Below, piece after piece: positions 11,304 to 52,070 of a DNA stretch of 64,000 nt. The stretch's first letter is position 1. Each line of letters opens with the position of its first letter. A program made the translations under genes and the position numbers. The notes below the pieces were generated by a model. It ran no database searches. It was not told the DNA's origin and was given only the letters and a program-made list of their open reading frames with translations. The stretch spans positions 4,415,001 to 4,479,000 of the forward strand of contig NC_082637.1 of NCBI RefSeq assembly GCF_030936135.1, read 5' to 3'. Source of the DNA: Gavia stellata. Its lineage: Eukaryota; Chordata; Aves; Gaviiformes; Gaviidae.

Positions 11304-11371
11304 ATAATTTTCAAGATCAGATGAAGCGGGAACTGGCATACAGAGAAGAAATGGTACAGCAGCTACAAATT
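11304..11371 (+). CDS. SKOR2: SKOR2 coding exon, second to last
   Basis: A 68-nt exon with acceptor ctcttacag and donor AAATT|gtaagt. After completing an Asn codon it encodes NFQDQMKRELAYREEMVQQLQ and I, ending in phase 0. This is the second half of the SKOR C-terminal coiled coil. The reading frame is exactly continuous with the exons at 5533-5631 and 20170-20232, so no exon is missing between them. Confidence 0.94.
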
Positions 11372-16409: not shown

Positions 16410-19400
16410 TTTGTATTTTTTCTCATTAATTTCTTATTCAATGCTTTAGCAGTTGGGATGATACTGCAGGTCTGTTTCTATATGTTCTGTTAGCTTAATT
16501 TGATTTTTGGTGGAGTTCCTCTCCAGGTTTAGTGGTACAAATTGGGAGTATGTCCTTTTGATGCCGAAGGCAGCATACACATCCCTGACTGCATACAGAA
16601 AAGTGAGCTGACAAGTACTGTTTTAGCAGAATTTTGTTTGCCGCTGTCTGCTTTTTTAAGACAGGTGAGCGAAGCTTGTATCTTGACAATGCATCCGGGT
16701 ATGCCTTGGGTTAATAGGATGGAGCTGTGCCTCTTTCTCCAGTAAATTAAAATGTTAAAGAAAAGGAATGCCTTGTAGAATTAATGGTTGTTAACAACAG
16801 AAGTAAAAGCTTCCTTTCCTTTAGAATCTGCAGAAATTCTGATCAAAAATGGATGCATATGTACCAGAGAGCCACAAGCCAGCCTCTGCTATTGCCTGTC
16901 TGCAAAATCTGTTTTTTCTATTGTATTAGTGTGCTCCAGTACTTAAAAATACATAGGGGAGAGGCTGCATATTTCAGCCATGCCTCTGTTGCCTTGCATC
17001 CTGTGCAGACCGGTACGCTGCCCTGAGCACATGCCACTGCCCACCCGGGAGGGAAGAGTCTCTGAACTCAGCCCACACAGCCATAAATGCTTTCACAGGG
17101 CTATAGTGGAGACTTACCCTCTAGAGCAAGCCGTTGGCACTTCCATTGCTCCTCCAGCTGTCAAAGGCTCAGTGTATGCTTTTTCTTCTCCTTAATCCCA
17201 CGCATCGTTCTATTCAGAAGCACCATGTGTGCAGAGACTGTAGTTTTCCAGTGACAGTTCAGCTGCACATCTGTCTCCTTCCCTGCATAAATACGTTTTG
17301 CATTTGGACGGGCTGTCTTGGCTGGACAGTGTTCTATCTGAGGTCTCGAGTGCACTCTCTGGAAATGAGAATTGTTTAACCAAATACCTGTAGATGCACA
17401 TCAGCTAATAGTGCTTGGGGGTACTGAAGATTCCCTCTTCAAGCAACAGAAGTCAGGTTGATGTATCATTGTGTACTCCAACTAAAGATAGGGTACAGAG
17501 GTGAAGTCTCCAAAAGAGGATGGTGTACAGAAGCTTCTTTGATGGCCAAGTGTAGCAGGGATCAGGCATGCGCTTTAGAAATGAATCCCCAGTCCTATCC
17601 GCTTATCTGCGCTTTGGTTCATGTTGTGGAGCAGACTCAGAGCTTGCAAACTGGATTCCTTCTGGATGAAGCAAAAGAGGATGTGTTCCAGGAATACACG
17701 TAGGAACGTGCTCTAGCTCTTAATGGGTGATCAGTACCCATGGACCAGACTAGAGCTAGCCTGAAGAAAAAAAAAATCGAGAGAAATGGAGTATGGACAC
17801 TGGGTCTTTCTCCTGCACCCTACAGATCTGCTCCCATTGCAATGTATTTCCTATTAATGTGGACTTAGTCATAAGAAACAGGTTGCTTGCTACTTAAAAC
17901 TGAACTATCTGCACTTCTGTTATGGCTGGCGGGTGTGTACACACTCTGGTAAGGGCCACGCATTGGATCTTCATGCCCATTTGAGTGCCGGTCCTATCTG
18001 CATTGCAACAGTCACCATGGATATGCAAAAGGGGATTCCGTTGTCATGAAGAGCCCTAAATACTATTCCACTGCAGCACCGGAGTTACCAAATGCTCTTC
18101 CAATGGCAAAAGTAGAAAATGACATTGTAGGTGATTTAACTCATGAAGAAAGTAGTCATTTCCCTATTGGACACCCACCTCTCCCAGTTTCATTTATTGC
18201 CAGGAGGATGGATAAACCAACACACATTGAAAAGACGCTGATGTGCCAAATATAGCAGAGAAGTGGATTAAGAACAGTTAATTTCTGACAGAATGTACCC
18301 CGTTGTATTATCTAGGTCAGTACGGCTTGGGAGATGTCCTATATAATTGGCGGCCATGCAAACCGGTGTTGCCTGTTGGCCCTTGTGAGCCTGTGAGTGG
18401 GAGAGAGGAAGAAAGCAGTCGGTGAAGCATCACAGGTCTCAGCTCAAATGCGCTTATTCAGGCAGTTTGTTTGTAGCTCCATTTTGAATCTAAACCGTGC
18501 AAACGGGTGAGCAGGTAAACAGTTTCTTTGCATACTCCTCTCTGCTGTAGTTCCGAGATGAGTTTTCCAAGCTTTGCAAACACCGTGCCCTGGCAGGCAG
18601 TTCTGTTTGAGGACTCGATTGAGGGGAGAGTTCTGGTTTTTGGGGGGGATCTGGCAGCAAGCTTCCTGATATCTTTCAGCTTCTGTGAAGGGTAGGGGTT
18701 GTAAGTAGTCAGACAAAACACCTGGATGCTGGGTCTTTTCAGGTCGTCAGTAGTTTGATCCTCTCAGTTGATGCACACACATTTCCCTTTTCCCAGGGCT
18801 GTGTAATGGGGGAAGCAGCATGCCCCCGTGAAAGGCTTCTGCTTTCATTCAGCCAGACGGCTCATCTTTGCAGACACCGCTTCTTCCTGGTGCTGCTGCT
18901 TTCAATCAGATTGACCTCCTTTCCCGAGAGATGAAAGGGTTAGCTCCTGAGCTGCAGATGCCCCTTTCTTTCCGCTCATCCTGAACCTTCCCTGCTTGTT
19001 TCCTTATTAAGGTAGGCAGGGATGGATACATCTCTCGATGTCATTGCAGATACTACACTTTACACCAGCCCAGAGACAGGCTGAGCGTAATGCACACAAA
19101 CGTCCTCACATGCTGTAGGCATAATGTAATTAAAACCAAGATAGGGATGTACAAGAATACATGTTAGATATATGGTCAGTGGATGTGGATGCAAATTCTC
19201 ATGCTTCTAGCATGTTATTAGGTGTGCAGGGTGAACTCAGTGCATTTGCCTGTGGGCTTCCTTTGGTATTCGTGCAGCTTAAGACCTTGCTCCTGACTTC
19301 AGCCCAGCCTATTTGTCAGCTTGCAGTAACGTACTTGACGTTATTTGTGAATGTATTCAGGAGTGCCTGACAGCAGAAGCAGGTCACCTCAGTGTGCAGC

Positions 19401-20169: not shown

Positions 20170-20232
20170 ATTCCTTATGCAGCAAGCTTGATCAGGAAAG
20201 AAAAGCTCGGTGCACACCTCAGCAAAAGCTAA
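20170..20232 (+). CDS. SKOR2: SKOR2 terminal coding exon with stop
   Basis: Preceded by the acceptor gtgtcattgcag, this exon reads IPYAASLIRKEKLGAHLSKS and then TAA at 20230-20232. It forms the extreme C-terminus of SKOR2, joined in phase 0 to the exon at 11304-11371. All sequence downstream in this exon is 3' UTR. The 20-residue tail is strongly conserved in the SKOR family as I know it, which fixes both the identity and the + orientation. Confidence 0.95.
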   Translation: MPYAASLIRKEKLGAHLSKS

Positions 20233-22110
20233 AGGTGAGCTTGTGAAAGAAGAGATCTTACTCTGCCCGGCCCAGCCGTGGTGTTTCTTTGCAGCTATTG
20301 CAAGAATTAAGAGAGTCATTCTGTTGCTTGATGTTTCTGATTCTGGTCTAAAAGCTCTGTCTGTGGAGGTGTCTTGCTACGGTCTAAAGCTGATAACTGA
20401 CGTGTCACATGAATTATGAGGCTTCACTGGGGTAGGACGTACCATTGAGAGTTGACCATTGCGTGAATCCAGGCCTAGTCGCCTGAGGATGTGTTTCTAC
20501 TCTCTGGCACTGGAAGGGTTGTGTAACTTCAGTGGAAGGAGGGAAATACCTTGGCATTCACAATGCAGTAGAAGTTCACAGACGGGCAGGTAGGGATGGG
20601 GTTTTCTACCCATAATGGAGCTTCTTCAGCTCCAGGAAAGAGCAGTATATTTTGGGAGCTTTACAGAACTATATCAATACTGTCTTCTGTAATTCAGTCT
20701 CCTGCAGATGCCGATTACCCTGTTGCCCATGTGCCGGATCTTCCTAAACACAACACTGCATTTTTCGGGAGTGTTTTTTAGAAGCGTTCAGTTAGAAGAA
20801 ACACCGTCTCATGATCAGTGACGTGGGAGATTCCAGTTTTGGGTGCTAAAGCCTTAGGATTTAAATGACATTCTCTTTTTTTTCTGGTAAAACAAGAAGA
20901 TTAGGGCTTGAATACAGAGATCCAAAAAGCTGGTAGCCCTGCTACCATGTCATGCCATGAAATCTGGCTTGTGGGTTCACTGAAAAAATCCCTGAGGTGG
21001 AGTAGGGGGATTAGAAAAAAAAAAAGACCTATTCATACGTAGAGACCTCAGTAATGCACAAAGTAGAGGTATTCAAGAGAAAGTCTGGGGCATCTGGGGA
21101 GGGTTTGATAGTATAGATGATGGAGGTTTGCTTGAGCTATGGAAGAAGCAGATACTTAAAAACATTAGGAGTAAGCATAGAGTAACTAGATAACCAGTAC
21201 CTGTGGCCTGGAGCTCTGCCTACTAAGATAAAGAGATTAGTCCAGGCATCAAGTTGGTCTGGTTTGCCCTCTTGTGCATACTTTCTTCCTGACTGCCAGC
21301 ATTTTCCAGTTGAGTCTACATTAATCTGCACACTGATTTAAAATAAAGTCAGTGATATTAATATCCTGAATAAAACAGTATGCCTCCCCAGATGAGAAGC
21401 AGCGGGTCCTGCCCTGAGCTCCTTGTCCAAACAACTGATCTACAACAAAAGTCTGCCTGAGGATGGCAGCATCAGATGAACGGCAGGGTTTGTTCCCAGC
21501 ATCAGGTTTTCGTCAGCTGAAAAGCCCTGCGAGGAGGGTGCTGGCATCACAGCTACGAGCCTTTCCTGCTTATGTGCCGAGAGCGTGAAGGATGGATGCA
21601 TTGCTCACGCTGTTTTTGTTTCCAGTGGCACACCATCCCTGCAGACAACAGGGATTTCTCTAAGTAGGCACTAGTGCTTTTGAAAGATTAGTTGTTACTT
21701 AACTGCTAAGCTAAATCAGTCAAGCAGAGAAGCGCAACTATATTGTTCAGAAGCAATTTCAGATTCTCAATGTGCCAGGCAGAAAAGAGTTGCCTCAAGA
21801 AGAAATGTGTATGCCCATACATACCCACACAGTGCACCAAGGGGGTGAAGACCCTGTGCCTTGCAGAGCAACCACTCGATTAATGCTCTGTCTTTCTTGG
21901 CTACCTTTGTTGGGCTTTGTGTTCCTTTCCACAGCAGGTCTTGTTGTGTTTAGTCCTACTTCAGTCAGTTACATTAAAGACAAAGTGCAAATTGTATTTC
22001 CAGGTGACTCTACAGATATTACCTAGCAAAGTCTCAGAGGATGTTTCTGGAGCAGGCGACTTACGTGTATCCCTTTTTCAAGGATTGTAAATAAATGTTG
22101 TAATTCTGTG
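20233..22110 (+). other. SKOR2: Probable SKOR2 3' UTR
   Basis: Non-coding sequence directly after the SKOR2 stop. AATAAA hexamers are at 21342-21347 and 22090-22095; the second is followed by a GT-rich stretch (tgttgtaattctgtgagt), which fits a cleavage region. A third AATAAA at 23157-23162 could serve a longer form. The true 3' end cannot be fixed from sequence alone. Confidence 0.45.
22090..22095 (+). promoter_or_regulatory. SKOR2: Candidate poly(A) signal for SKOR2
   Basis: AATAAA followed within 30 nt by a T/GT-rich element. It is the best-placed hexamer of the three found in the first 3 kb after the SKOR2 stop. Such hexamers are common by chance. Confidence 0.35.
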
Positions 22111-24330: not shown

Positions 24331-26773
24331 ATGAACTCAACTGTAGTGCGGTGGTAAAATGTCTTACCGCTATAGATCAAAAATTTTGCCCAGACATAAA
24401 GTAATCCCGTTGCTCGATAAGAAATTACTGCTCTAATGGCTTCTGAGTGCCAGAGCTCCTGGATGTGGTCAGGCGTGCAGAGTAACCTGTTGTCCCTCAC
24501 CGTTTGAGAACCAGCCCGTTCAGGCCCAGGAGCAGACACGAAGGATGTACAGCAGATTTATTTGGTTTTTACTTTCTGCTCAGCAGCGTTCAGACCATCA
24601 CGTTCCCCAGTGACTTCCCGCAGCAAGTAAGTAGTGCGTCTGTATGTTGTTGAAGTTGTGTAACTGTGTATTAAATGTATAGCTCACACAAATGACAGAA
24701 TGGATATGCAAAATTTGTTTCAAATTGAACATTCAAACTTGAAATGTCCAATTTGCTCTTGGTTCGTTATGCTAAATCCCCCGGTCAGGAAATGGAAACG
24801 CCACTTGTCTGGTTTGTAACTGATCTACAGACCACAACTGCAAATGTTAAGATGGAACATATGTCTCAGAATTAAGCATGAATTAAGTGTTTTGAATTAA
24901 AAAATCCCTCATGCTGATAAAGCTCAAGAACGTGATCCTAGAAAACAAACACAGAGCAGCCACCGCCTAAACTAATCTACTTCGGTAAACATCCAAGGAA
25001 ACTTCTTATCACCGGTTGCTTTTTGTTTGCTTTCCTCTTGTGCCAAAGTTTGTACACGTTAAAGTGATGAGGATCCCATGAAACACTCGTGTTTCACAGC
25101 CTCAGCCCTCAATGTTTCCACCAGCTGGCATCATAAAGAAAAGAAAAAGGATACTGGAAGATTTACCCAGTAGTTGATATGGTTGTATATGCAGTATACA
25201 TACCCTAAGGCTGTGTCTATACTAATGTTCTCCATAGCTGAACTCACCTATATAGTTAAATTGTTGCAGCAGCCCCGGCAGGGTTGTGTTTGAGCCCACC
25301 GATGTCCTGGAGAGCAGTTCGCGGCACAGATGGCGAGTCAACTGAGACATACAGTCTTTCCCGATGGCAGTTTGGAGGCAGCCACCCTGAGCTGAAAGGT
25401 AAGGATTTCGTGGTGTGGGTGCAGCTCTTCGGTGCCATGTGGCCCCAGCCACGGTTAATTTACTGCTATAGGATAGCCCGTATCGTTGCTGTCTTTGATA
25501 GAAAATTAATGTCCTGTTAAGAGTGGAAAAGAAACATGCAGTCTTTCTTACACGTGACGTGCAGCTCATCAACACCTTTAAGAAACCTGCATAGTTGACC
25601 AAATGTCACTTCTACAGCTGTTAACCACAAGAGAGGCAAAATGTAATAGCTGTATTACAGATCTTAGTTTTAGCCTTTCTTTCTTCAAAATCCCCTGAGA
25701 ATGGCAAAACCCACAGCACAGGCTACACACTGAGCTGTGATTTGAATTTTCCTGGGTGCTTGAATGAACAATAAATAGATACAGAAAGCTCACTAGTGAT
25801 TGACAGTCCTTTCTTTTCCCCCAGAGTTGGGTTTCCCTGTACTGCCCACATCATCTCCAAACCACTTTGAGCTCTGTCCTTCAGACGTGATGGTGCTTCT
25901 CCAGGATTTACGACTTAACCTCATTTGCTTCTGAGATACTTTAGCACAGTTATTTATGTTGGTGAAGAAGTGCACCAAGCAAAAGCGTGAAGGTATGTGC
26001 TTTCCCTTACTCGAGGGCATGGGAACAGACCATCTCTCGGGACCATACTTTTAGGTGCCTTCAAACCATCTCCCTCAAAGACCTTTATTTACCTTTTGTT
26101 GACCTTGTTCTGAAATGACAGGTGAAATCCAGTGAATCATGGATAAGTTATTTGAAGCGGAGAGCGTGTTTGAGCACTTACTGCTCTTGAGATCAATCAT
26201 ACTGACTAATAAATACCTTGATTATTATAAAAAGTTATCTCTGCATGAATAGGGCTAATTAACAAAGGTGTTACAGTGAAGATTTGGAAGTTTTGTCTGA
26301 ACCGGGAATGGCAAGCAGGATAAGGCCCTGCTAATGAATAGTAAATAAAATCTCTGCGTGTTTTTTGTACTACTGATCAACTCTCGACTATTCCTTTGAC
26401 TTTTGTCTTTTGTGAGGGATTAAAGTTCAGGTTTCCTCACAATTTATTCTTCCTTTTTCGTAATTTTTATGTAAAACTTCAAGGCAGTTGTGTCAAAAGT
26501 TTCGTATAAATTTTGTAGCGTACAAAAAATAGCACCTTCTCAGCAAACCTGTATTTTTTAGGCTATATCAACAAGGAATTAACAAAAACAAAGTCTAGCA
26601 TTTGCTCTCTTGGATAACCACTTTTACCCCACTGGCTTTCAGAGCAGAATCACTCTGCTAAACAAAACCGTTGGGAGAGCTCCTGTATGACACCTCACTG
26701 TTTTCCTATCATCTTCTGTAGCTCTTTTCCCTCTCAGGGCTTTGTCCATGGAGTTCATGCCCAGATGAGCATG

Positions 26774-26844
26774 GCAGAGGAGTTGGAACTAGGTGATCTT
26801 TAAGGTCCCTTCCAACCCAAACCATTCTGTGATTCTACGATTCT
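26774..26844 (+). mobile_element. CR1 LINE 3' tail fragment
   Basis: The sequence 'ggaactaggtgatctttaaggtcccttccaacccaaaccattctgtgattctacgattct' is the classic CR1 3' end, with its terminal short repeat (attct-g-attct). Only about 70 bases remain, so it is heavily 5'-truncated. Confidence 0.88.
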
Positions 26845-29105
26845 AAATATATTTTGACACCACTTTACTCAACTGGCTTGGATTATTCAGTACATTTTTG
26901 AAAGGGCTTTTTTTCACTATAGTAAGATTACCCTTGATACATATGCTGATACGAAGTGTTTCATCTCCAAACTACTAGCCGGGTATTCACTAATAAATCC
27001 CAGAGCAGGTAAATAACCTACAGCCGTACTGAGAAGCTCAGGCCCTGCGTATGGCTCAGATCCTTGTGCCCTGTGTCTCTGCGGCCACGTCCACACTTGG
27101 CTGGTTGCCCTGGTCTCACTGGGTTTGTTTTATCTGTGCTGGCAGTTTGCAGTGGTGGACTGCACCCAATCCGCGTGAGATACGATGTTCCTGCAGGAAA
27201 GAGCTGCCCCCTCGACTGCAGCTCCCCACTCTGTGACCTCAAGCTTCTCCACAGAACTGAGTTTGGAGTCAGGTGGATACTGGGTTAAAAAAGAAAAAAA
27301 AATTTAAGACATTATAGAGCCCCTTCAGGAATATTCAAAGCATCCCATTGCTTTTTCCTTAATGACTCTGAAAATTAATGAAACTGAATTTCCATTCACA
27401 AGAGATGTTTGCAGAGAAGAACGTGTCCCAGACACTTCCACCATGTCTTCACACTGGGCACGGCGGAGGGCTTTCAGTACCATTCAGGAGATGTTCAGTG
27501 GCTTGCAAGAGTGAGGTCTGCCATATATTTAGCATCTTTTCCCCACAGGGCATGGTCTGCGTGCCAGAGAAATCAGTAAAGAGACTCCCATTAACTTTGG
27601 TGAGCTTTGGATCAGATTCAGAATCGCAAGTGGGTTACAAAGCTATTTAGGTTTTGCTTTGAGCTTTCCGTTTTGTTTGATACAGAAGGAGAGCACCGGC
27701 ATCTGCCCGAATATGAAGTCCTCCCTTCTCAGGAAGTCTTTTGTGGCATATACAACATGGGAACATTTTTTAACATCATGCTTGCTCTGGCTCAAAGCCA
27801 AATAAAAGGCCAATGATGCCCTGGAGGAGGGAGAGAAGGTACTTAGATACTGAGCGTCCTCCTCTATGGGTGGTACAGAACAGAAAATTGGTGTGTGGCT
27901 TAACCAAAAACACATCTGCGTATATCTACAGGCCTGCTTTCTGCTGTTCGCCTCTCTGTAAAATCTATTTAATGTAGTTCATTCACTGTTTTCTTAAGCC
28001 ATAGAGGAAAATTCACAGCCACGGTCATTATCTAAACGTGCTCAGTGATTTGGACTGTGGACATCTGAAACCCTGCCAAACAATCTCCAGGGGATTTGGA
28101 GAAGTGCTTTGGTCCTGTTTGATACTAGGAGTGAGGCAACAGGAGCTGAAATGGTTTTGCAGCTATTTATCTCGGCACAACAGAAAAACGCATCAATCTC
28201 TATTGTTAGTTTTGAAATACCTGCCAATCTGGTGTGTATTCATGTATTCTGTGTGAACGTATTAACGGAAAAGGAGTCTCCACCCTAGAGCACCACTCCT
28301 TCTCTGACCACAAGCACAGGTAATCGCATTTTTTCACGAGATAACTCAGTGCAGTTGCCAGCTCAGCTCCAGTCTGGCAGTAAGAACTAGGGGCTTTTGC
28401 AGAGCAAAGCGAGGTCCAGATCTGTGGAGACGTGACTTCCCTAACAGAGGCACGGGAAGAGGGGGGTGCTGCAGAACAAGATTGATGATATCCTCCTGCC
28501 CATGGTGCAGTAAAGAACAGCTAAGCCAGGCTGCAAGAAGCGCCAAAATGAAGCACGTTTGAAACCCAACCCTAAACTGGCCATCACCAATTAACAGCTC
28601 AACAACAGCTCCTTAAGTTCCTACCTCGTTCCTTTCAGTGTGAAGAGCGAGGTCGGTCTGCGTAACACCCAAAAAGCAAGGACTGGGCTCAGACTTACCG
28701 TGGTCCCATAGTCGCCCCTTGGCCAGAAGCCATCTCAGCTGGTGGGGTTTCTCTGCCCGGAGAGCGCCCAAACCACGGGGCTGCCTGCCCTCTCCACCCA
28801 GCCTGCTGGAGAAGACCCAAAGGCCACCACCACTCTTGGGACAGGGCATATTTCTGCAGTGATTCCTGAATGCAAGCTACAGAGGCAGTTTTGCTGGAGG
28901 ATTTCATGCCAGGAGTCCAGTACCCAACAGAAGCCCTGGCAGGCTTCTAGGTGGAGTCCATCTGTGTCTCCTGCTCCACCAGAAAGATCGGGAAAAGAAT
29001 TGCTTAACAAAAGGACGGTGAGTAAAGCCTCTCCTTGATCCACCTCCACACTTTATTGATCGGCTATAAACGGAAGAGATTATCCTGCCCTAATAAAAAC
29101 CACAG

Positions 29106-29143: not shown

Positions 29144-29654
29144 AGAGGCAAATGAAGTGAGCGATTAGTCTGAAACCCTTCAGACCAGCTTTACTTTCAT
29201 GCAAGGTCTTAGCAACATGATGCTGATGGAAGGATCTCCAGCAGTTACAAGGTAATCCAGAAATTTGTAATCTTACTCTGCTCTAGATTTAAATTACCTT
29301 GTCTTATTTTCTTAACTTTTTTCCATGCTGGAGGGTGAGACTGAGGTGCTCCTTAGGACATCTTACTGATGGGACAAAAAGCGATTGTATCATGGGGGAG
29401 GCTGTAGTAAGCAGGTGATCTTCCCTGTTCAGTAACACTCAGCCTAGCTCTCCTTGCACCAGGGGAAACTTCACATGAGATCCTGAGACAGCTTCTGGGC
29501 CAACATTTCAGTTTATTTGCAGACACATGCACTAACAGATAAGAGGCAAACCCTGGACAGTCTACTTAGCTACAAAATTATGCTGCCTGGTTTTACTGTC
29601 CGAGCTTTATAATAGTAGGAGTTGTTGCAGATCCCTCTTGACTCATGTTGATAG

Positions 29655-29914
29655 GAGGGGTAATAGTTAAACTAAAAGAGGGGAGATTCAGACTAGATAG
29701 AAGGAAGAAATTGCTTATGATGAGGGTGGTGAGACGCTGGCACAGGTTGCCCAGAGAGGTGGGAGATGCCCCATCCCTGGAAACCTTCCAGGTCAGGTTG
29801 GACGGGGCTCTGAGCAACCTGATCTGGTTGAAGATGTCCCTGCTCATTGCAGGGGGGTTGGACTAGATGGCCTTTAAAGGTCCCTTCCAGCCCAAACCAT
29901 TCTGTCATTCTATG
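29655..29914 (+). mobile_element. CR1 LINE 3' fragment, forward orientation
   Basis: Forward CR1 3' region. It includes 'aaactaaaagaggggagattcagactagat', the ORF2 end region 'gtggtgagacgctggcacagg', 'tccctgctcattgcagggggg', and the tail 'cctttaaaggtcccttccagcccaaaccattctgtcattctatg'. It is near-identical over the last ~70 bases to the reverse complement of 10571-10640, so the two belong to the same subfamily. Open frames overlapping it are repeat-derived. Confidence 0.9.
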
Positions 29915-31259: not shown

Positions 31260-31315
31260 GATGGTCCCTGCTGGCGAAGAAGGTTTCCACAACACGGCGG
31301 TTTCCAAGGAAGAAG
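31260..31315 (+). CDS. Putative exon A of unrecognised membrane protein gene
   Basis: I do not recognise this gene. The block follows a good acceptor (ggcttgctttttcag|G) and opens with ATG at 31261. It encodes MVPAGEEGFHNTAVSKEE and ends GAAG|gtgctt in phase 1, which is a weak donor. Joined to 32085 it stays open and in frame. The acceptor before the ATG implies a 5' non-coding or coding exon upstream. If the weak donor is not used, translation could instead start at the ATG inside the next exon. This is the least certain of the three exons. Confidence 0.4.
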
Positions 31316-32084
31316 GTGCTTCATTTTCCTGTTTGTTAGCATTTTAAATCTGTTTTGCAGTGTTTATTTGTGTGGCGACACTACTGAGAGGCGCCAGGCA
31401 ATAGCAGTGTTATCAAGTATATACGATTAGCAGATACAGAGTGTTGAATGGTCTCAAAAGGAATAAATGAATCAGCCATGATAGACCCATTTCTGTTGGG
31501 GTTTTAGAGAGGGAAGAATGGTGGAAATAAAAGGAGCTGCTGCAGCAGAAGAAAGGAGTGGGAAACTTGGAGGCAGGGGTAGATTGGGTACATAAGCCAA
31601 ATTTCACTCCCTTAAGTTTGGAATTAAACCCAAGAGCCAAAAAGGATGGAAACTGAGATTGATAATGGTGGAAGTGGGTGGAAAGTGCTGTCTAGAGAGG
31701 CAGTAAGACTTGGGATCCTGCTACAGCTTTACTGTGAATAGGTGGATAATGTGAAATAACTTTGTGGTCTAACAGTGCAGGGCAGACTTTTCCACCCTCA
31801 GATCCATAGGGCTGGGTTTCAGCCCTGCAAAGCAGTTTTGCTTTGTACATTGATAGATAAAGACCCATGAGTTAATTAACTGAGCTGCAAGATTTTTGAA
31901 GAAAAAGTAGTTTCCCAGGAGCGCCCTTCTAACGCAGAGCTGGTCATCCCCCTCCATCCACGGTTTGCAGCAGGACAATCAGTATTTGCAACCTGTAACA
32001 ACCTGGGGTCATTTCAGAAAAGCTTGCATTTCTTAAAGCTATTTGTTGGCAAAACTCACCTGTGATTTCCATACTCTCTTCAAG

Positions 32085-32181
32085 GTTCATCGCCGTTTAC
32101 TTACGAGATTATCATGGTGTCTCTCAGTGGAAGCCTCTTACTGCTGGTTGCCATCAGCGTAGCAATAAGCGTTCTCCGGAG
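32085..32181 (+). CDS. Putative exon B, transmembrane segment
   Basis: Acceptor ccatactctcttcaag and a strong donor CGGAG|gtgagt. In the frame shared with exons A and C it encodes SSPFTYEIIMVSLSGS followed by LLLLVAISVAISVLR. This is an uninterrupted hydrophobic stretch of about 23 residues ending in Arg-Arg-Arg-Cys across the splice, as expected for one membrane-spanning helix with its basic end in the cytosol. An alternative start is the ATG at 32114 (context atcATGg), which would make the helix N-terminal and give a protein of 107 residues. The exon is 97 nt, phase 1 in and phase 2 out. Confidence 0.5.
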
Positions 32182-32410
32182 GTGAGTGTTAGGCAGTAGG
32201 AGAGGACCCAGTGTCGCCAAGGAAATGTGTGCAGCAATGAATTCCTCCAGGAGCCAAGTGTGATCAGGGAGCCCATAGCAAAGGCCTGCCAAACCCTAGA
32301 GCTTCTTGGGGTCCTCCTTACGCTCTTTCTCCATCAGCCTGCAGCAGGGTTCATTAACAGTGGTTAGAGAATTGCTAGGGTGGGTGCTTGGGTAATACTA
32401 ATTTAGACTC

Positions 32411-32858
32411 TTAGAATCATAGAATCATTTAGCTTGGAAAAGACCCTTAAGATCATCGAGTCCAACCGTAAACCTAACAGTGCCCAGTCCACCACTAAAC
32501 CATGTCCCCAAGCGCCACATCTACACGTCTTTTAAATACCTCCAGGGATGGTGACTCCGCCACCTCCTTGGGCAGCCTGTTCCAGTGTCTGACAACCCTT
32601 TCAGTGAAGAAGGGTTTGCTAATACCCAATCTAAACCTCCTCTGGCGCAACTTGAGGCTGTTTCCTCTCGTCCTATCACTTGTCACTTGGGAGAAGAGAC
32701 CAACACCCACCTCACCACCACCCCCTTTCAGGTAGTTGTAGAGAGGGATGAGGTCTCCCCTCAGCCTCCTCTTCTGCAGACTGAACAACCCCAGTTCCCT
32801 CAGCCACTCCTCACAGGACTTGCTCTCCAGACCCTTCACCAGCTTCATTGCTCTTTAG
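32411..32858 (-). mobile_element. CR1 LINE 3' fragment with open C-terminal ORF2 frame
   Basis: Reverse-oriented CR1 lying in the intron between putative exons B and C. On the minus strand a 354-nt frame (32848 to 32495) is open and carries the familiar CR1 ORF2 C-terminal run ([20 protein letters not shown], then VVRHWNRLP and [12 protein letters not shown]). The 3' end reads ttagaatcatagaatcatttagcttgg on the + strand. It is a 5'-truncated remnant of a reverse transcriptase element, not a host gene, and relatively well preserved. Confidence 0.93.
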
Positions 32859-33368
32859 GGCAATGAATTTTGGTTTTGTTTTATATCTGGACCAAAATCT
32901 TCTCCCCAGATTTTATTGAAATGCATATTTGTATGTATTGAAATTTTATTGAGGAAAATTAAGAGACCCAAGCCCCTAATTTCTCACTACTGCCAACGTT
33001 TTCATTTTTTCCTGAAGTCACAAGAAGAGGGACATTCCTTGAGATGTTTCTATAATGAGAAAGTAAACAATATGTTTTGAGAAATCTCTTCAAACAAAAA
33101 CTTTGTTCAGCTTTAGTTTGAATGCAGCTACCCAAATGGTGGAGAGTGATGGGGTCCTAAGACATGTTTTATGCTAAAGGACAGAAAGATTAGGGGGAGA
33201 GGAAAAGGTCACCTCCATAATTAATTAAATCAGCTCTATCCCAGCTATCAGTTCTGTACTGCCATTAGTTATATCCTGTTACTAACTGGATTGGGTTCAA
33301 AATGCAAACAGCCCTTCATGCTTCTCTAACACCTAATGATTTGTTTTACTCCGTTTCTGTTGTGCCAG

Positions 33369-33624
33369 GCGCTGCACATCAAATTATTCCTCCAAAGATC
33401 TCAGTACACCTGTGGTGGTGGAAAATATTACAGTGACGAACAATAGCTCTGATAAGATTTCCACGGTGGATTTGACTGGCCCGGTGTGTATAAGTTATAT
33501 ATCTGACAAGGGAACTGTTTCCCCAGAGTTAGCCATCTCTGAAGAGACAATTTCCATTTTTGATTTACCGTTCTTCACCTTTGCTGTCTCGATAACACCC
33601 CCCGATTCAGCGCCAGAGCAGTGA
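33369..33624 (+). CDS. Putative exon C, C-terminal tail and stop
   Basis: Acceptor ctccgtttctgttgtgccag, then 84 codons and TGA at 33622-33624. The tail starts RCTSNYSSKDLSTPVVVENI and ends ITPPDSAPEQ. It is Ser/Thr-rich and acidic towards the end, with a hydrophobic patch (FDLPFFTFAV). Four N-glycosylation sequons occur (residues N56, N70, N75 and N76 of the 135-residue model). These would face the lumen only if the topology is opposite to that predicted from the adjacent Arg cluster. The exact three-exon frame match is the main support. No family is assigned and expression is unknown. Confidence 0.5.
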
Positions 33625-36600
33625 TGGCCCACACAGCTTCTTCCACCTGCAGCTTTCTTCTGGAAAGAAAAGTGGATGAAGGACTCGGGGGTGTATGCTG
33701 GCGAGCTGATGGACTGACATTCCCCACTTAATTTTCTCCACCATAGCTTTGGACTGTGAACTCGTACCACACCAGTATTAGAAAATGCAGGAAAATGGAT
33801 TTTTTTTATGGAAGTGGAGAAAAAGTGTAGATAGATGTACTTTATCTCTGTGATGTGTTGGGTTAAAAATTTACTGTAGAGACAAACATATTTCCATATT
33901 ATCTCTTTCTGTGGGATGAGTCATGGGAAAAAATTCCTGGGGGGATTTCTGGTAATTTTTACAAAGATTTCCCAATCCTTCTGACTCACAGGTGAATCCC
34001 ACATGTTACGCCGAGACCTAACCTTTTGCTCATGGTTTCCTACTAGCTGTACAACTCTGTGGCTGCGCTAACGTTATTGGACAGGTTGCAATTTCTTAAG
34101 TCACCAGGTTTGTGATTTTTTTTTTTTCTCTACCCACTTTTACAGCCTGAAGGAAGATACCGTCTATTAATCTTTAATCTGAGTGCTGCAGCTTTCCCAG
34201 CACCGATGACCTCTGCCACTGGCGTGACACCAGCTTGCTAAGGAACAAGCCTGGCTGTTCTCCCCATTCAGGTGGCAGTTACAGGGGACAGGTTAGTCTG
34301 AGATCTGGCACGGAGAGGGATAGGTGTGCTCCCTGGATCTGGCCAGCCTAGCCCAACTTCATGCCCTTTGCTAACTGCTGCTAGGAGCCCTGCAATAGCT
34401 GCAGGGTATATAATTTTCCATTCCTCTTAACAACTTTCTTGGCCTACCTCCAGCATGTTTTCCGTACAAGTAGATGGAAAGTTGAAGGAAGCGGGAGAAA
34501 AGCCCTTTGACCAATGGGTATTCCTCCAAAAAGTGGTCTGGCATGGTCCGTTCCTCCTTTGTGCTCACATGTCACAGAGCACTGAAAGTATCTGCAGGAT
34601 CATTAAGGCACTTAACAATCAGCAACGGGTTGGAAGCATTGTTGGCATCAGTGACTGTGCCTTAGCTAATGGCTTTAGCTAACCTTGGTGGAAGTAATGC
34701 TCTCAGGACTCATGTTTTCAAACGGGAGACCTGAGGTCCACCACATGTCTGAACAGGAGGGCTCCAGCCCATGAATTTCCTCCTCTCCCAGGCTTAGATG
34801 GGGCCAGCGTTCACTGGGGAAGCTGTTGATGGAGAGTCTGGCCCCAGCAGGACGCACCATGACACCAACACACTCGTGTAAGCTCCTGTATGTGATGCTT
34901 ATCAAAACAGAGACGTAGGGCAGGCACGGAAAGATGAGGCTTGCCCACACAGATCCACGCAGGCTTTAGGCATTTCAGAGACCTGAGTAAAAATCCGTGT
35001 GCTCTACTGCAAAGGCAGTCGGACTTCAGTCACCATTACCACACCTCTGTATTTGTCCCAAAAGGGCTCTTTGAGTAACTTTTCTATTAGCAGAGATGGA
35101 AACCAGACCAGATTCTGCAGTTGAGGGGATGTCACCCTCGCTGGTGGAGGTTCAGCCACAGCAGGGTCCTTTCTCCTCTGACATGAGCCATATTCCCATT
35201 CAAAATACTGCTGCTGATACCATTTTCCATGGTCCGATGGAAACACATTTGCACATCCATGGTGGAAAACACCAACTCCTTGCCTGTAGCGCTCTGTGCC
35301 ATGTTGGTCTCCCTCTTCCCATACCTCTATTTAGTGAGCTGCTCCTGCCTGTCCACCACCTGCAACGGCAGCCTCAGGCACCCCTTCCCTTTGCTCTCCT
35401 TAATACCCCTGCTCTTTCTTCATGCCGCTCGCTGCACGGCAACAAAATCCCTCCCCCTTGTCAAAATTCATGGAGCAGTTTCCTCATCCTCCTCTAAATC
35501 CTTCCTAAAGACCCGCTGCTGCCTCAACGCCTGCAAATCCTGACCATCTGTCAGCAGTAAGGCAGGGCTAAGCAGAGACTTCCAATTCTCTAACAAAGTC
35601 TATTTGTTTTCTTGCTGCCCCATTCCTTGTGTTGGCCTGCTTTTGATATCCACTGTTTTCCAGCTGAGACATGGACTGGAAAATCCCTACGCTTTGAAAA
35701 ATATCTATATGGTACTGAGCATGACAGGCTTTGGTTCTGGACTGGTGTATTCCAGCACAAACACAACGCAAACGGTGACTTGGGTGAAGATGCCAATAGT
35801 TGCAGTACAATATAATGTAACAATGTAATACTGTGCTATTGATAATACCAAGATGAACAGCAGCGTGTGTGTGTGTGTGTGCATGCACTAGCCAACAAAT
35901 GACATTTAAAGGATGTTACAGTTACAGAGCCAAGCACAATAAACTTAAGGAAACGGCATCAATAAATTTAGGTGTAAATTCAGAGTTTTGTATTTGTTTT
36001 TCCTTTGTTCTTCAGTCTCCTTTTGTGTGTGGAGTCATATTAATGTACTCTCAGGGTACAAATCTTAGGAAAGCTGGCAGGCTGTTTTTGGAGGGACGGC
36101 TATTCACTTTCCAGATAAGCAAGGGCAGAGATGATACTGCGCAGCACATTTCGAGTCGTGGAGAAGACAAAGATCTTTTCTGTATATAGCTGCTGAAGGG
36201 TAAGAACCAGATGCCAGTTCTCTCAAATGTACAAAATCTTGCTGCATTCCCAGCTTTGGTGGTTAAAACAACCAACAACTGGAAATTAAACCAGCTAAAT
36301 ACTCCATTTGTGTTTACAGGAGATGGGTTCCGTCTGTAGGACGCATCATTAACCTTTGCAGCACTTCAGCAGTGCAATAGGTGTGATGATTAAAGGATGA
36401 CGAAGGCTTTAGTTTAACTGCGAAATGTAGCTACGCAATTTATTTATAGCACGTTACTGAGCTGCAGAACCTGAATTTTTCACATACACAGAATTTTTCA
36501 GTTAATGGAGTCACTCATGGTAGAGGTTGGTACATGGCAGGCAAGTGTAAGGACTCAACTCCTTGATTCAGTACCCCATTCCACATAGTGTGATGGTTTA

Positions 36601-39229: not shown

Positions 39230-40110
39230 TGATGACTCGGTGGTGCCCACGGGGGCCACCCTGCAGCCCCAGGGCGGGATGACGCTTCCCTGCCAGCTCC
39301 CGCTGTTCGGAAGATGCGACATTGAAATTACTGATGGAGAAAGGTAAGGCTGCGCCTTCCTCCTCCGCTGAAGCCCAGCTGAAACAGCAGGCCGCTCGCC
39401 AGGCGGCAAGCAGAGCTGGCCACGTGGAAAATCCCCGCGCTTTCCGCCCACGTGCGCTGCCCGGGGCGCGCGCCCACGCGGGATCCCACCCCCCGGGAGA
39501 GATCAAAGGGGGAGCGCGGCGCTCGGCCACGGCTGCGCGGCGGAGGCCACGCCCACCGCCACGCCCCCTTCCCCCGGCCCCGCCCCGCCACGTCCCGCTC
39601 GGGCGCCGCGTCCCGCCCCGGCGGCGCATCGCGGCGGCGGCGGGCCATGGCGTTCACGCTGTACTCGCTGCTGCAGGCCGCGCTCCTCGTCGTCAACGCC
39701 GTCGCCGTGCTGCACGAGGAGCGCTTCCTCCGACACGGTGAGCCGCCAGCGCACCGGCCGGCCGCGGGGAGCGGGAGGGGGCGAAGCCGGGGCCAGGCCC
39801 AGGCCCGGCCGCCGCGACGCGTCCCCTCGGCGGGGCCTCGTGAAGGGAGGAGCCGCCCGGAGCCCGGCTGGCGGTACCCGCCGCGGCCGCCCGGCTCTCG
39901 GCCAGCCCGGGGGTGCTCCTGGCGGGCTCCGCGGGCGCGGGAAGGCCGCCCGGTGTGGCGGGGGCCGCTGCCGACCCGCCGGGCTTCCCGGGACCCGGTG
40001 CTGCGGCCCGCCGCTGCCTTTCCTTGCCGGCGTTGGATATCAGCGGGGGAGGGATGGCCGGGGGGGTGCGGGCTGGAAGTTGGGTGTTCTGCCGGCGTGG
40101 TTGACGTCGC
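39230..40110 (+). promoter_or_regulatory. IER3IP1: CpG island / IER3IP1 promoter
   Basis: Strong GC- and CpG-rich block covering the IER3IP1 start codon, first exon and early intron. GC boxes (ccccgccccgcc) lie close to the ATG, and two perfect CACGTG E-boxes sit at 39421-39426 and 39449-39454. I see no TATA box, which fits a dispersed housekeeping-type promoter. Long open frames on both strands here (for example 39328-40680 on the minus strand) result from low stop-codon frequency in GC-rich DNA. Confidence 0.85.
39647..39737 (+). CDS. IER3IP1: IER3IP1 coding exon 1
   Basis: IER3IP1 (immediate early response 3 interacting protein 1) is an 82-residue ER/Golgi membrane protein implicated in ER homeostasis and secretory transport. 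Loss in humans causes microcephaly with simplified gyri, epilepsy and early-onset diabetes. This exon starts at ATG 39647 (context gggccATGG) and encodes MAFTLYSLLQAALLVVNAVA then VLHEERFLRH, ending CACG|gtgagc in phase 1. Residues about 2-20 form the N-terminal hydrophobic helix. The complete gene is three coding exons (39647-39737, 41569-41670, 42552-42607), 249 nt, giving 82 aa, equal to the human protein. Confidence 0.97.
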
Positions 40111-41568
40111 TCCTGTCGTTGCTTTGTCTCTCTCTCTCGTTTTTTTCCATGATTTTCTCTTTTTTCTGCCCGTTTCTACTATTCCGTCTCCGTTTGCGCC
40201 GCACGCCGGGATGTTGCGGTAGCGTGAGGGGGTTTCTTTCATCCTGCCGTGCCTTTTTTGGCTGAGAGAGCACTTCTCGGCCTTTGCACGCTCACGCTTC
40301 TGAAGAAAGATCCCCCAGGTTGGGCATCCTTGTCCTTTAAAAGAAAACAAAGCCCCACAAAACACAGAAAAGCCACCGACACCAATCTCTGCAAAACCCC
40401 AGAAAGAAATAGCTGTGATCCAAGGTTTCCCAGTTCCCTGCTCTGGAGAATTCTGACTTTTCCAAGTCAGGCTGAGCTTGGATCTTTGGCTGGAGTGCGG
40501 ATAGTTATCCCTTTCTCCCGTTCCTCCGTAGGATTCACTGCGAGGGACCTGCTCGGTTTGGGTGTGGGGTTTCTTTTGCAGCAGCTGGAGGAAAAGGGAG
40601 GTGTGAGGACTAAGAGGATGGGTCAAGCCACTTGTCTGCCCTGGGTGACGCGGGAGGCTTGGGAATAACTCCAAGCTCATCCGAGTGGGAAGCAGAGGCT
40701 CACAAGGCTGGTGAGGGAGAGGACTCGCCTACTGCCCCCAGCCCGCTGCCAGTAGAGAGAGGGAGACAAGCAAGGGGGAAAAAAAAAAAAAGTCACTCAA
40801 AAAAAGTTGTCTCTGGAGAAAAGAAACTCGCAGGTTGCACGGTGCAGCTTGGGATACCAGCAGCCGCTCCCTTCTCCGCTCCGCTCATCCCCAAATGGGT
40901 CAGGGCTGTGGCCGGCAGGACTCAAAAATCCCTGGTCCCCATCACTGGGACCAGAGGCTCTGCCTCCCCGCAGCGGGTCGGGAAGGGTTTCTCTCTTCAA
41001 GGGCTTTGTAATAAACCTTCAGTACTTCTGTTGCCCTCTGAAAAGTTCCCAAGTCATGTATTTCTCTTTTTTTTTTTTTAATAGCAGTTACTAAAATCAT
41101 CATCCCAATTTGGAATCTATGCTGACCGTTTTCTGTCATGCAGCTCATTTCTCAGTGCTGAAGCGTCACTTCGTACCCAACAATTATTTGCTATTTTATC
41201 TTATGGTAAAGGACTGTGAACAGATTTGTAGTTTGTTTGGTTTTATTTTGGCGGGTGTTTTTCTGAAGCCCAGATAAACTCATTTGTTTCTCCGGCACAC
41301 AGGGAATGGTAGTGTGTTAAAAAACTAAGGGTTTCCTTTACAGAAACATTGCTCTGTCATTACTGTTGCATTCATTAAAAGGTTTAACAGTTTTTGGTAT
41401 ATTGTTTTAAATTCTGATCTTGAAATAACGCAAATGGGTTTGTAGTTTGTTCTCATGTTATTGATAGTTATATGCAAGATAGATCACTCTTTGATATTGC
41501 TGGTAGCATTTGTTGCGTGGTTTTGGGGTGGTTTTTCTAATGTGTCTGGCTGGTTTTACATCACGCAG
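39738..41568 (+). other. IER3IP1: IER3IP1 intron 1
   Basis: The first 400 bases belong to the CpG island and the remainder is ordinary intron with A- and T-runs near 40780 and 41070. Several open frames on both strands are compositional artefacts. Donor is gtgagc and acceptor is cacgcag. Confidence 0.85.
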
Positions 41569-41670
41569 TTGGCTGGGGAAGCGATCAAGGGATTGGAGGA
41601 TTTGGAGAGGAACCAGGAATTAAAGCCCAGCTAACGAACCTTATTCGATCTGTACGAACCGTTATGAGAG
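41569..41670 (+). CDS. IER3IP1: IER3IP1 coding exon 2
   Basis: A 102-nt exon, acceptor catcacgcag, donor GAGAG|gtaagg. It completes V31 and encodes GWGSDQGIGGFGEEPGIKAQ then LTNLIRSVRTVMR (residues 32-64). This is the conserved soluble loop of the protein, including the glycine-rich GWG-DQGIGGFG segment. It ends in phase 1 and joins the last exon at V65. Confidence 0.97.
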
Positions 41671-42551
41671 GTAAGGTGACGATCTCGCGTTTAAACGTTG
41701 CCCGTAAAGTTTTGTTTCCGTGCTTTAATGAAGTAACGTCAGTATTTTGACTTTTCTTTTACCAAACAGCTGCTATTTCTGCTCGCTGTTTCCGATCTGT
41801 CCTCCCTTCACGCGTGGGCTCTGTGTAGGAGGGTGCAGGTCCCAGCTAAGGTGCCCTCATTTTGATAAAGTGTAAAACATTCCCTGACTCTGGCTTGTGG
41901 TGCCGCTGCTGCATCCTGTCTTTCCTCGGAGTTTGGGAGCTGGGGGGAAGCTTGGTGATCAATCAGAGAGTGCAGTTAGCTTCAGCTTGGCTAAATTCCA
42001 TTTTATGTGACGGGAAATGTAATTCCTGCCATTCTTAAAGGTAAGCCAGGCTTATGTGCCTCAAAGGATGGGGAAAAAAAAAAAAAAAGACTTTAATTTG
42101 TGAGTAACTGATAGTTTTCTTCACTATAAAGCACACCAAAAATTCCTTTTATAGGTGATGATAAACAGGAATTAACAAATCTTACCTGTCTTGCTCGCCA
42201 CAGAGTAAAATCTGATATGTTTCTTCTAAATCACGGCAAAGCCAAGGGTAGAAACTGACTTTGAGATGGCTTAGTTTCGTTTGGAGACAAGGTTGTTTGG
42301 GTTCAAGTTAAAACCTGATGGGCCATACAAAAATATTTATGCTGTTGCTTCCTAATTTTTAGTATCCTAGGCTTTGATCCTGGCTCCTTCCACTAATCTT
42401 GATTTTTGCAGAAGAAAATTCAGTGTATTTTTAAAATTTTGATTGCTTTTGCTTCTTAAAAGGTAGTTTCCCAAGATAAGAACGATTTCTGTCACTTTGT
42501 GATGCGCAGAAGGAAAATTTTCACAATTGCTCTTCTTTTTTTTCCCTACAG

Positions 42552-42607
42552 TGCCATTAATCGCAGTGAACTCCGTTACAATCGTTCTCCTCCTGTTGTT
42601 TGGTTGA
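42552..42607 (+). CDS. IER3IP1: IER3IP1 terminal coding exon
   Basis: Acceptor ctttttttttccctacag. It encodes (V)PLIAVNSVTIVLLLLFG followed by TGA at 42605-42607. These residues (66-82) are the C-terminal hydrophobic helix that anchors the protein at the ER membrane; the chain ends directly after the helix, as in the human protein. Confidence 0.97.
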
Positions 42608-42760: not shown

Positions 42761-45740
42761 TGTTCACTTGCAGTTTCATTAAACAAGATAATGGGATCAA
42801 TGCAACAATGCTGCAAATATATCGGACTGTGACAAGTTCTGTTGCTGCCTGTTAATAGCGTTGACTGTTAGAGTATATGCGTCGTAACGTATTGCAATGA
42901 TTGTCAATAGGATGCGGTTTTTAAATGTCTCGTTACTCAGGGATGAATTTCCTTCAGTACACTTCCCAGTTTATTTTTAAATTTAAAAAAAACCCCAGTG
43001 TCTTTTTTTTATTTCAATTACTACCACAGTACTATTTAAGAGAATATGAATTAGGCTCTGAAAACATGTTATAAATTATTGAAGTACAGTCGTGGTATTG
43101 AGGGAGACAAAACTTGCTGGGGAAAGACCCGATTCAGTTCACACTGGAAGTCGGGATTTTCCCGGTTTGATTGAGAACGGGATTTTTCTCTTGGTGTTTG
43201 GTAGCCTTTTCCAATCAATAATATTTGATGCTGATGGTGAAGGAAGTTGAAAAGAGGTGCAATTGCTATGCAAAATCTAAAAAAGCTGTACCTAAAGCTG
43301 GGCAACTCTGTGTTAATTTAGACTAGCAGGTGATATTAGTGATTAGCCATTTTGTTACTGTTCTGTCATGGATTATTATACTTTTTAAAATGCGTGTTAA
43401 ACTTCTGCGTGGTGTTCAGCGTCTTGGAAGTGGGGAACCATTTGTGTTCTGAGCTGCTTGGGAAACGCAGAGGGGAATGCTGTGCCCTTTTCAAATGCAA
43501 CGCTTTGTTAAAACCAGCAAATTTGTGGCCTCTTCTATTACTGCTGCGTCTTCTCCCGCCCTCCATCTTCCTTTGTTAAATTAATAACTTTGAAATGGAA
43601 AGTCTGGGTATGATCTTGGCAGTTCTGTCGCAGAGACTAATGCTAATTGCTTTGGTACAGATCTTGTCTCAATTAAGGCTGCTGGGTTAGGTCCAATGTT
43701 ATATAGCAAGTCTGAATTGAAGAAGGATGATTCTCATGTACTTTTTTAGAGAAGTTGGAAGTCTGATGTCTGTTCCTCTGCTAAAGTGTTTGAGCTTATT
43801 TTTCAAGTGGGGAAAGCCAAAGGAAACCTGGCAGTTTCATTATTTCAGAACAGCTTAGTTTATCATCTCTTCTTCCGACGTCTTGATGACTAAAGCATAC
43901 GCCGTTGTGTACAAAGATAAATCTGTAAAATGTGTAAATTAATTTAATGATCTTCAACTGCAGTGTTTTGCAGAGTAGAGTATACCCAGGAAGAGAGTTT
44001 TATGTTGTTCCCTTTTTTTAGTGAAAACCTGTAAATAAATTCTGAATTTCTAAGTTAAGCACTCTCTTTCATAACTCGCTCTATACCTGTGTACAGTGGG
44101 AGTATCTCAAAACTCAATGTCGTCCTGTTCCAGATACCAGAGTTACTGTTCTTACATGAAATACTTTTTTTCTCATCCCTGTGGCACTTGCAAGTATCAT
44201 CTCTCCGCGATGAAGCTGTGTTTTGGTTTATGTAGCAAACCTAATGAGCCGTGGTAACATTGGCCAGAGGCAGAATAGGATCACGCTAGGCTTTAAATTC
44301 TAGAGTGGGTAGATAAGATTATAAATTATTCCTTATAATAATCTTTGTGTAATTCAGAGGTGATGAGGGTATAGTCTGGATCAGTTATTTTCATGTATCT
44401 GTCTCTCACGGAGACTGGACAGTATGTATGTGGAACAGATAAAACATGGAAGGTATGCAGGCCTTTTTGTAAAACTTTTGTACAAAAAGCAGTGGTAGAT
44501 GTTCCCATTGCTGCTGCATTGGGTTGGAGTACTGAATGATTTGAAGCACAGCTTGCATATCATTTCCTTTTCATATGTATTGACTGTTAAAACCCTAGTT
44601 CTTACTAAAATAAAAGGCAGTACTGAAGATTACAAGCAGCAGCTTTAAAAATGGGTAAAAAGTGATTTTCCCCATCTTCCTGTCCTTTCAGAAAGGCTGA
44701 AATTTCAATGCACGTGGGCAGAGGCTGAAATTTCAATGCATGTGGGCAGATCGTTTCAAAATCAATTAGGCACATGTGGGGAAAAAGGAGCAGTGGTTCT
44801 GTGCAGCAGGAATTTGAGGCAAAACTGGGACGTGTTTCACCTGGCAGATGCAAAATAATGACTCGAAGTGGGGCAGCAGCTGCAGATTAGGTCTCCCAGG
44901 TAATGAGCAGGAAAGAGGGCAAAAGGGTGGCCAGCAAACAGGCAGAGAAGGAGGGAGTATAGAGAGAAACAGCAAGGGAATAATTACACTGCTGCTGCCT
45001 CCTCGTGTGGCTTTGAGCAGTTCTGCTGTGACTTAAGTTTAAAGAAGGCGAAGCACCTCAAAGCTGGCAGGGGGTCGGGTTCTTCAGTAACAGGGAACAT
45101 GCAAAAAAAGTTTCCACCTGGCAAAGAGCTCCACGTGCAAAGTAGCCTGTGATCCAGTAGTCACTTCGAACTGTGAAGAGTGTTATCGCTCATACCTGGC
45201 ACAGAAATGACAATAACCATGACATTTTACACATCAGGATGGGAACTAAGGTTTCCTATTGTAGAATAATCGGCTCGTTTCTAGTAACGATTTGAAAATA
45301 GAACACGCTTTCACAGCAGGAGTTTGCAGCGTGGCGGTACCAGTCGCGGCTGGTTGTGGGGAAAATGGGGCTTGTGGGACACTTCACAGTCCTTAGTGCA
45401 AATACAGGCAGGAATAAGGGAGTGATTCTGTGCACCTGCACTGTTAAAGGTTTTGTTTTGAAGGGCATGGCGACAGGCGAAGGGAAAAGTAGGAAGGTAA
45501 TGGGTTTGTACACAAATAAATGAATCTCAAACTCACTTTAATTATCTTTTGACATCTCACCTTAGGTTGCAATGTTATGAATTTAGAACCGTATTTTCCT
45601 ATAGACCTTGAATTTTTTGACGTACCATCACAATATAAAACTGTGAACGCGTGTCATACTTAATGCATTGATGTGCTTTAATTTCTTAGGAAATCCTGAC
45701 TGCAACGGCTTAAAACGCAATTGCATCTCCTCGTGTTTTC
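42761..45740. other. Region between IER3IP1 and HDHD2 CpG island
   Basis: No gene seen. It may hold a longer IER3IP1 3' UTR. It contains a 28-nt tandem duplication at 44694-44749. Open frames on the minus strand (for example 44605-44853) have no support. Confidence 0.6.
44694..44749. repeat. 28-nt tandem duplication
   Basis: Two abutting copies (44694-44721 and 44722-44749) of a unit starting aggctgaaatttcaatgca. They differ at one base, where CACGTGGG in the first copy is CATGTGGG in the second. The difference fits decay of a methylated CpG after a recent duplication, and it leaves a perfect CACGTG only in copy 1. Confidence 0.92.
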
Positions 45741-49105: not shown

Positions 49106-49206
49106 ATGGCAGCTCGGCGTGCGCTGAAAGCTGTCTTGGTGGATCTCAGCGGCACACTTCACGTTGAAGACTCAGCTGTGCCAGGCGCGCAGGAAGCTCT
49201 TAAAAG
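49106..49206 (+). CDS. HDHD2: HDHD2 first coding exon
   Basis: HDHD2 (haloacid dehalogenase-like hydrolase domain containing 2) is a HAD-superfamily C2-cap protein of the phosphatase type, related to LHPP; its physiological substrate is not settled. Start ATG 49106 is in context ggATGG. The exon encodes [20 protein letters not shown] then [13 protein letters not shown]. Motif I is DLSGT: nucleophile Asp13 is present, but Ser15 replaces the usual second Asp, as in LHPP. The exon ends AAAAG|gcaagc, a GC donor; the frame with the exon at 51862 is exact (R34). The six coding exons total 780 nt and 259 aa, the human length. Confidence 0.96.
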
Positions 49207-51861: not shown

Positions 51862-52070
51862 GCTGCGCAGCGCTCCGGTTACCATTCGATTTGTGACGAA
51901 CACAACGAAAGAGTGCAAGAGAGACCTGCTGGAGAGGCTGACGAAACTGGGATTTGACATTGCAGAAAATGAGATCTTCACGTCTCTGACAGCAGCCAGA
52001 AATCTGCTGGAGCAAAAGCAGGTTCGGCCTCTCCTCCTGGTGGATAATAAGGCCCTGCCTGATTTCACAG
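51862..52070 (+). CDS. HDHD2: HDHD2 coding exon 2
   Basis: A 209-nt exon, acceptor catccatcag, donor CACAG|gtgagg. It encodes residues 35-103, beginning [20 protein letters not shown] and containing HAD motif II (VTNTT, Thr46/Asn47), which contacts the phosphate. It then runs through [18 protein letters not shown] into the start of the C2 cap ([17 protein letters not shown]). Phase 2 in and phase 1 out. Confidence 0.97.

Follow-up and report, generated by a model that had tools for sequence, protein, structure and literature searches.

Three blocks between SKOR2 and IER3IP1

On its + strand, the window (the whole 64-kb stretch of DNA that was analysed) carries coding exons of SKOR2, IER3IP1 and HDHD2, which were located by tblastn with human or family sequences as queries. 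The last SKOR2 coding exon, which forms the upstream neighbour of the region considered here, matched a SKI-family C-terminal peptide with 100% identity over 20 aa, and we take the gene to be SKOR2.

5532-5633, 11294-11374 and 20170-20229, + strand: 3' coding exons of SKOR2 (tblastn)
39647-42604, + strand: IER3IP1 with its three coding exons, the next gene downstream (83-88% identity to human IER3IP1 in tblastn)
49106-61010, + strand: HDHD2 (tblastn)

Between the end of the SKOR2 coding region (20229) and the start of IER3IP1 (39647), three blocks on the + strand had been put forward in a previous, sequence-only reading as an undescribed gene for a small membrane protein.

31260-31315, + strand: block A, a putative internal exon entered in phase 2 and left in phase 1, or else a start exon using the ATG at 31261; MVPAGEEGFHNTAVSKEE(G)
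32085-32181, + strand: block B, a putative transmembrane exon entered in phase 1 and left in phase 2; SSPFTYEIIMVSLSGSLLLLVAISVAISVLR(R)
33369-33624, + strand: block C, putatively the last coding exon, with 84 sense codons before a TGA

When spliced in matching phases (A, 2 to 1; B, 1 to 2; C, then TGA), the blocks give a single open frame of 135 codons with neither stop nor frameshift inside it, the conceptual product being MVPAGEEGFHNTAVSKEEG-SSPFTYEIIMVSLSGSLLLLVAISVAISVLRR-RCTSNYSS...APEQ*. The coordinates, splice sites, phases and 135-codon frame of the sequence-only reading were all reproduced, as were the 84 sense codons followed by TGA in the last block. Splice sites were ranked with human matrices among all 6787 GT and 9276 AG sites on both strands. 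The acceptors at 31260, 32085 and 33369, previously described as good, lie at percentiles 99.6, 93.2 and 96.8, and the donor at 32181 (gtgagt), previously described as strong, is near-consensus and falls within the top 0.1% of GT sites (percentile 99.9). The reservation already expressed about the gtgctt donor of block A also held, this being the weakest donor of the model (percentile 92.7). All these site scores are inside the range of the SKOR2, IER3IP1 and HDHD2 junctions (18 junctions, with one donor not found), which were scored at the best site at most 12 bases from the tblastn edge.

The 19-residue Kyte-Doolittle maximum of block B is 2.47, so that the hydrophobic helix assigned to the middle block stands; the three Arg that were said to end this block do not lie where they had been placed, and instead straddle the B/C junction, with block B closing on ...VLR and contributing two bases to the second Arg codon. 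The predicted cytosolic tail encoded by block C contains 11 D/E, 4 K/R and 24 S/T.

Each of the three blocks is single-copy within the window, and repeat copies sit in the introns. Such copies, in both orientations, were found at 29699-29912, 26770-26837, 10567-10780 and 32541-32599 and are presumably CR1-like, and an ORF on the minus strand (32495-32854) resembles what we take to be a CR1 reverse-transcriptase tail. Gene order and the CR1-like repeats suggest a bird as the source of the DNA. A 28-bp tandem repeat in two copies (96% matches) was also recorded at 44694-44750.

With regard to other features of the locus, neither Rfam at gathering scores nor the tRNA search gave a match, no CpG island was present across 26.0-34.5 kb (o/e 0.12-0.45), and the nearest AATAAA or ATTAAA downstream of the block C stop is 2.3 kb off. 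The human SKOR2-IER3IP1 interval is not known to contain a coding gene. The available passages of PMC5327406 name no gene between SKOR2 and IER3IP1, and they place the two genes on separate scaffolds in the duck assembly.

Chance expectation and coding-like statistics

The summed score of the A-B-C chain is 29.4. A best chain of at least this score was obtained in 10 of 150 shuffles of the interval, and a lower mark of 27.6 was reached in 22 of 300. Among five other real strand pieces, three exceeded 29.4, namely the interval's own minus strand (49.4) and two pieces from SKOR2 introns (39.7 and 32.4), and the remaining two fell below it (11.8 and 16.9). By itself, the splice-phase chain is not significant, such scores being common by chance.

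The highest of these values belongs to a chain on the opposite strand.

33659-33579, 28802-28699 and 27190-27018, minus strand: antisense three-block chain

Its frame is the best of three in two exons, two of the three exons score negative, and the frame of the last exon is the worst of three; the last exon does not look coding, and the first two are ambiguous.

These chain scores, together with the 99 ORFs (stop to stop, 90 codons or longer) found in the window, argue for non-coding intergenic DNA, that is, for a coincidence of open blocks, good splice-like sites and a T-rich hydrophobic frame from which the best chain was picked out of 64 kb. We regard this explanation as quite possible, and, if it is correct, the locus illustrates how readily chance alone produces splice chains with matching phases. 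It fits less well with the frequency of chains whose middle exon encodes a transmembrane segment: with all thresholds fixed post hoc, once the candidate had been seen, the window contained a single such chain both under strict thresholds (set at the observed values) and under relaxed ones, against 0 and 9, respectively, of 200 whole-window shuffles. At both the strict and the relaxed thresholds used, A-B-C was the sole chain of this kind on either strand. A transmembrane segment in the middle exon makes a chain unusual and harder to attribute to chance.

Coding-like base composition was assessed with a position-specific base model trained on 11 known exon pieces from the same window, which in leave-one-out runs placed the true frame on top in 9 of the 11. 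In each of the three blocks the model favours the frame that had been predicted, and of the 27 combinations of frames the predicted one comes 1st. Open frames are favoured anyway: among 403 open null exons 50-130 bp long, the own frame was the best of three in 200, and therefore the frame preference of A and B adds little. For block C, the comparison was made with ORFs of at least 84 codons and GC below 52%, among which it ranks 4th of 73 by frame contrast (14.8) and 5th of 73 by score. Above it by contrast are two HDHD2 exons (25.4 and 19.2, 1st and 2nd) and an ORF within a SKOR2 intron (15.1, 3rd); the latter, at 17449-17700 on the + strand, scores just above block C, and no gene is known there. 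Since ORFs without known genes follow closely at 14.6 (32749-32498, minus strand, repeat-like) and 13.6 (47594-47845), the block C contrast is high without being an outlier, and contrasts of this size in ORFs without a known gene are again in line with non-coding DNA.

What non-coding DNA would not lead one to expect is the period-3 signal of block C, which, at 3.35 (3rd of 73), equals the level of the HDHD2 exons (3.75, 3.05 and 2.13) and was met by 2.4% of 295 sliding windows across the interval. Under human codon usage, the rank of block C among 125 is 5th for frame contrast and 33rd for raw score, rising to 3rd and 4th, respectively, among the 68 at GC below 52%. On the opposite strand, one antisense frame beats the sense frame both in block C (4.8 versus 1.4) and in block B (2.2 versus 1.0), and the strand is therefore left unproved by the position-model test; the antisense frames of block C contain 4, 2 and 3 stops. 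Altogether, the frame statistics of block C are moderately coding-like. A local period-3 peak was also seen over a 140-codon ORF at 35121-35500 on the + strand.

Searches for relatives bear on the same question. No Pfam match up to E 10 was obtained for conceptual proteins of 135, 157, 196 and 201 aa, and the sole Pfam match of a 71-aa piece was EphA2_TM (E 0.29). No Pfam family appeared up to E 1 in the translated + frames of 16.0-35.0 kb or the minus frames of 20.2-38.9 kb, a scan which recovered the hydrolase domains of HDHD2 as a positive control. NCBIfam returned a single match, to the PVV-CTERM domain, which was below the cutoff (E 0.022), and none of the 31 viral-contig and 129 prokaryote-contig pattern matches was confirmed as a relative of the 135-aa protein. 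The earlier statement that no recognised family is present agrees with the Pfam, viral-contig and prokaryote-contig results, and this lack of homologues in the same three sources is a further point in favour of non-coding DNA.

The 5' end and alternative exons

Three additional candidate exons on the + strand could be connected to the blocks.

21883-22003, + strand: alternative first coding exon with a signal-peptide-like start and a phase 1 donor (gtgact); MLCLSWLPLLGFVFLSTAGLVVFSPTSVSYIKDKVQIVFP(G)
27197-27272, + strand: weak optional linking exon (phase 1 in, phase 2 out) from the signal-peptide exon to block A; KSCPLDCSSPLCDLKLLHRTEFGV(R)
34792-34918, + strand: possible alternative last exon with 41 codons open, in phase with block B, behind a very strong acceptor (9.4 bits)

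The exon at 21883-22003 begins 1.7 kb past the SKOR2 stop and ends in phase 1, which is the phase required by block B. It was the lone candidate on the + strand of 20.23-32.0 kb, with none on the minus strand, in a search for a hydrophobic start followed by a donor of at least 4.5 bits, thresholds which were chosen after this exon had been noticed. Under other thresholds it was missed, and five overlapping candidates emerged in a GT repeat near 30.3 kb. Of 200 shuffles, 15.5% contained a signal-peptide-like exon of this type whatever its phase, and 5% contained one ending in phase 1. Its frame scores (1.4, -8.2 and -10.8) are coding-like. A shorter version, 21883-21937, was discarded in its favour, as the corresponding donor (gtcttg) reaches only the 66th percentile.

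Joined straight to block B, without A, this exon could give a protein of 157 aa, and joined via 27197-27272 and A, one of 201 aa; it may instead belong to the SKOR2 3' UTR. The linking exon has an acceptor of 4.2 and a donor of 2.3 bits and is not coding-like (-4.5, the other two frames scoring -1.4 and -1.8). For the ORF at approximately 27146-27285, an Ig-like reading was rejected, given a single PDB match, to a ribosomal protein (E 1.2), and a frame that is not coding-like. Also dismissed was 26738-26792, the top-scoring upstream exon, as 26770-26837 recurs elsewhere in the window. Among the best eight upstream exons listed as able to feed block A, seven had negative frame scores, and 29184-29251 was slightly positive.

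In the sequence-only reading, translation started at the ATG of block A and produced a three-exon protein of 135 aa. The frame holds; the model itself is doubtful on two counts, namely the donor of block A, which is the weakest in it, and a signal-peptide-like exon situated 10 kb upstream that can bypass A and splice directly to B. The model should be treated as B and C plus an uncertain 5' end, rather than as a 135-aa protein.

The scores of the upstream candidates for A and the weak donor of A would also suit a recently decayed gene, in which B and C are still open while the 5' exons have been lost or broken, and which would explain the lack of convincing upstream ectodomain exons. Set against this are the 135 codons free of stops and frameshifts and the open signal-peptide-like exon, and we consider such decay very improbable.

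At the 3' side, A and B joined to the 34792 acceptor give a sum of 36.7, which was reached in 0 of 300 shuffles; this acceptor is stronger than that of block C, and the summed chain is higher than A-B-C. In the position model, the predicted frame of 34792-34918 scored -0.6 versus 2.8 for another frame. The fit of B to this acceptor, the strength of the A acceptor and the B donor, and the location of the blocks on the same strand as SKOR2, beginning 11 kb past its stop, are compatible with exons of a spliced non-coding RNA or with a 3' extension of the SKOR2 transcription unit, neither of which would yield a protein. Under both, the frame bias of block C would be unexpected, and we judge this explanation improbable.

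A possible orphan membrane-protein gene and its comparison with known systems

We favour, with a probability of roughly 45%, the reading in which B and C form the 3' end of an orphan gene on the + strand, as its last two coding exons, and in which the product is a single-pass type I membrane protein. What speaks for the earlier proposal of an undescribed small membrane-protein gene is the transmembrane exon with its near-consensus donor, the moderately coding-like block C and the absence of a recognised family; the three-exon, 135-aa model is doubtful. The open frames, the splice-like sites and the hydrophobic helix are observed in the DNA, and inference supplies the rest: transcription, splicing, translation, topology and a partner. 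If real, this would be an unannotated membrane-protein gene at a syntenic spot that is not known to contain a gene in human.

According to this orphan-gene reading, a signal peptide, perhaps encoded by 21883-22003, would direct the chain into the ER. The ectodomain that follows would be short, and block A may form part of it; the helix of block B would cross the membrane once and be halted by RRRC, and block C would provide an acidic, Ser/Thr-rich cytosolic tail of 84 residues. The likeliest action, which even for a real gene we hold to be somewhat unlikely, would be that of a small accessory subunit that packs its helix onto a larger membrane protein and modulates that protein, the tail of the subunit being the part under regulation.

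Small type I receptors and adaptors have a signal-peptide exon ending in phase 1, a transmembrane exon and a tail exon. The exon layout proposed for the candidate is alike, and no Pfam domain was found in the scanned frames.

The FXYD proteins, such as FXYD1 (phospholemman) and FXYD6, are regulators of the Na,K-ATPase, in which a Ser at the inner membrane border is conserved. FXYD6 was the best solved-structure match of the candidate in phmmer searches against PDB chains (E 0.018, 0.0057 and 0.031 with 135, 80 and 201 aa, respectively), and this weak likeness comprises a short N-terminal part with PFxY, one transmembrane helix and an Arg/Cys-rich stop-transfer (RRC). Against a profile built from human FXYD1-7, the candidate scored 13.1 bits, exceeding both 2000 shuffles confined separately to the N-terminal part, the helix and the C-terminal part (maximum 10.0) and 93 hydrophobic ORFs of the window (maximum 7.1). 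When only the helix was shuffled, 1035 of 2000 sequences scored equally or higher, and therefore the helix and FXYD have no specific positions in common. As described in PMC12860976, the PFxYD signature precedes the membrane helix in FXYD proteins, and Gly29 and Gly40 are conserved transmembrane glycines in FXYD7. The candidate differs in reading PFTYE, with E in place of the Asp (D) of PFxYD, in aligning only one transmembrane Gly, with Ala for the second, Arg for the Ser and the first G of GG lost, in its tail of 84 aa, and in having no Pfam match. Membership of the FXYD family was rejected on the grounds of the helix shuffling, the Pfam result and the missing Asp, Gly and Ser.

In its boldest form, the proposal would be an undescribed sauropsid gene, lost or absent in mammals, with a signal peptide at 21883, PFTYE outside the helix, RRRC behind it and the acidic 84-residue tail, serving a pump or channel as an accessory subunit in the manner of FXYD proteins, a likeness arrived at by divergence or convergence; this we consider quite unlikely.

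Another comparison is offered by dreammist (DMIST), an FXYD1-like small single-pass membrane protein whose gene was formerly annotated as a non-coding RNA, as stated in PMC10406431. That source describes a two-exon gene beside ANKRD13A/GIT, in contrast to the candidate's position beside SKOR2 and IER3IP1, and the motifs QNLV and CVYKP, which are absent from the candidate's 135 codons; the wrong locus and the missing QNLV and CVYKP exclude identity with DMIST. What the two have in common, following the same text (PMC10406431), is the character of an overlooked small single-pass membrane protein with RRR following the helix, and, if the candidate is real, it would indicate that genes of this sort, small, multi-exon and devoid of recognisable domains, continue to escape notice, as dreammist once did.
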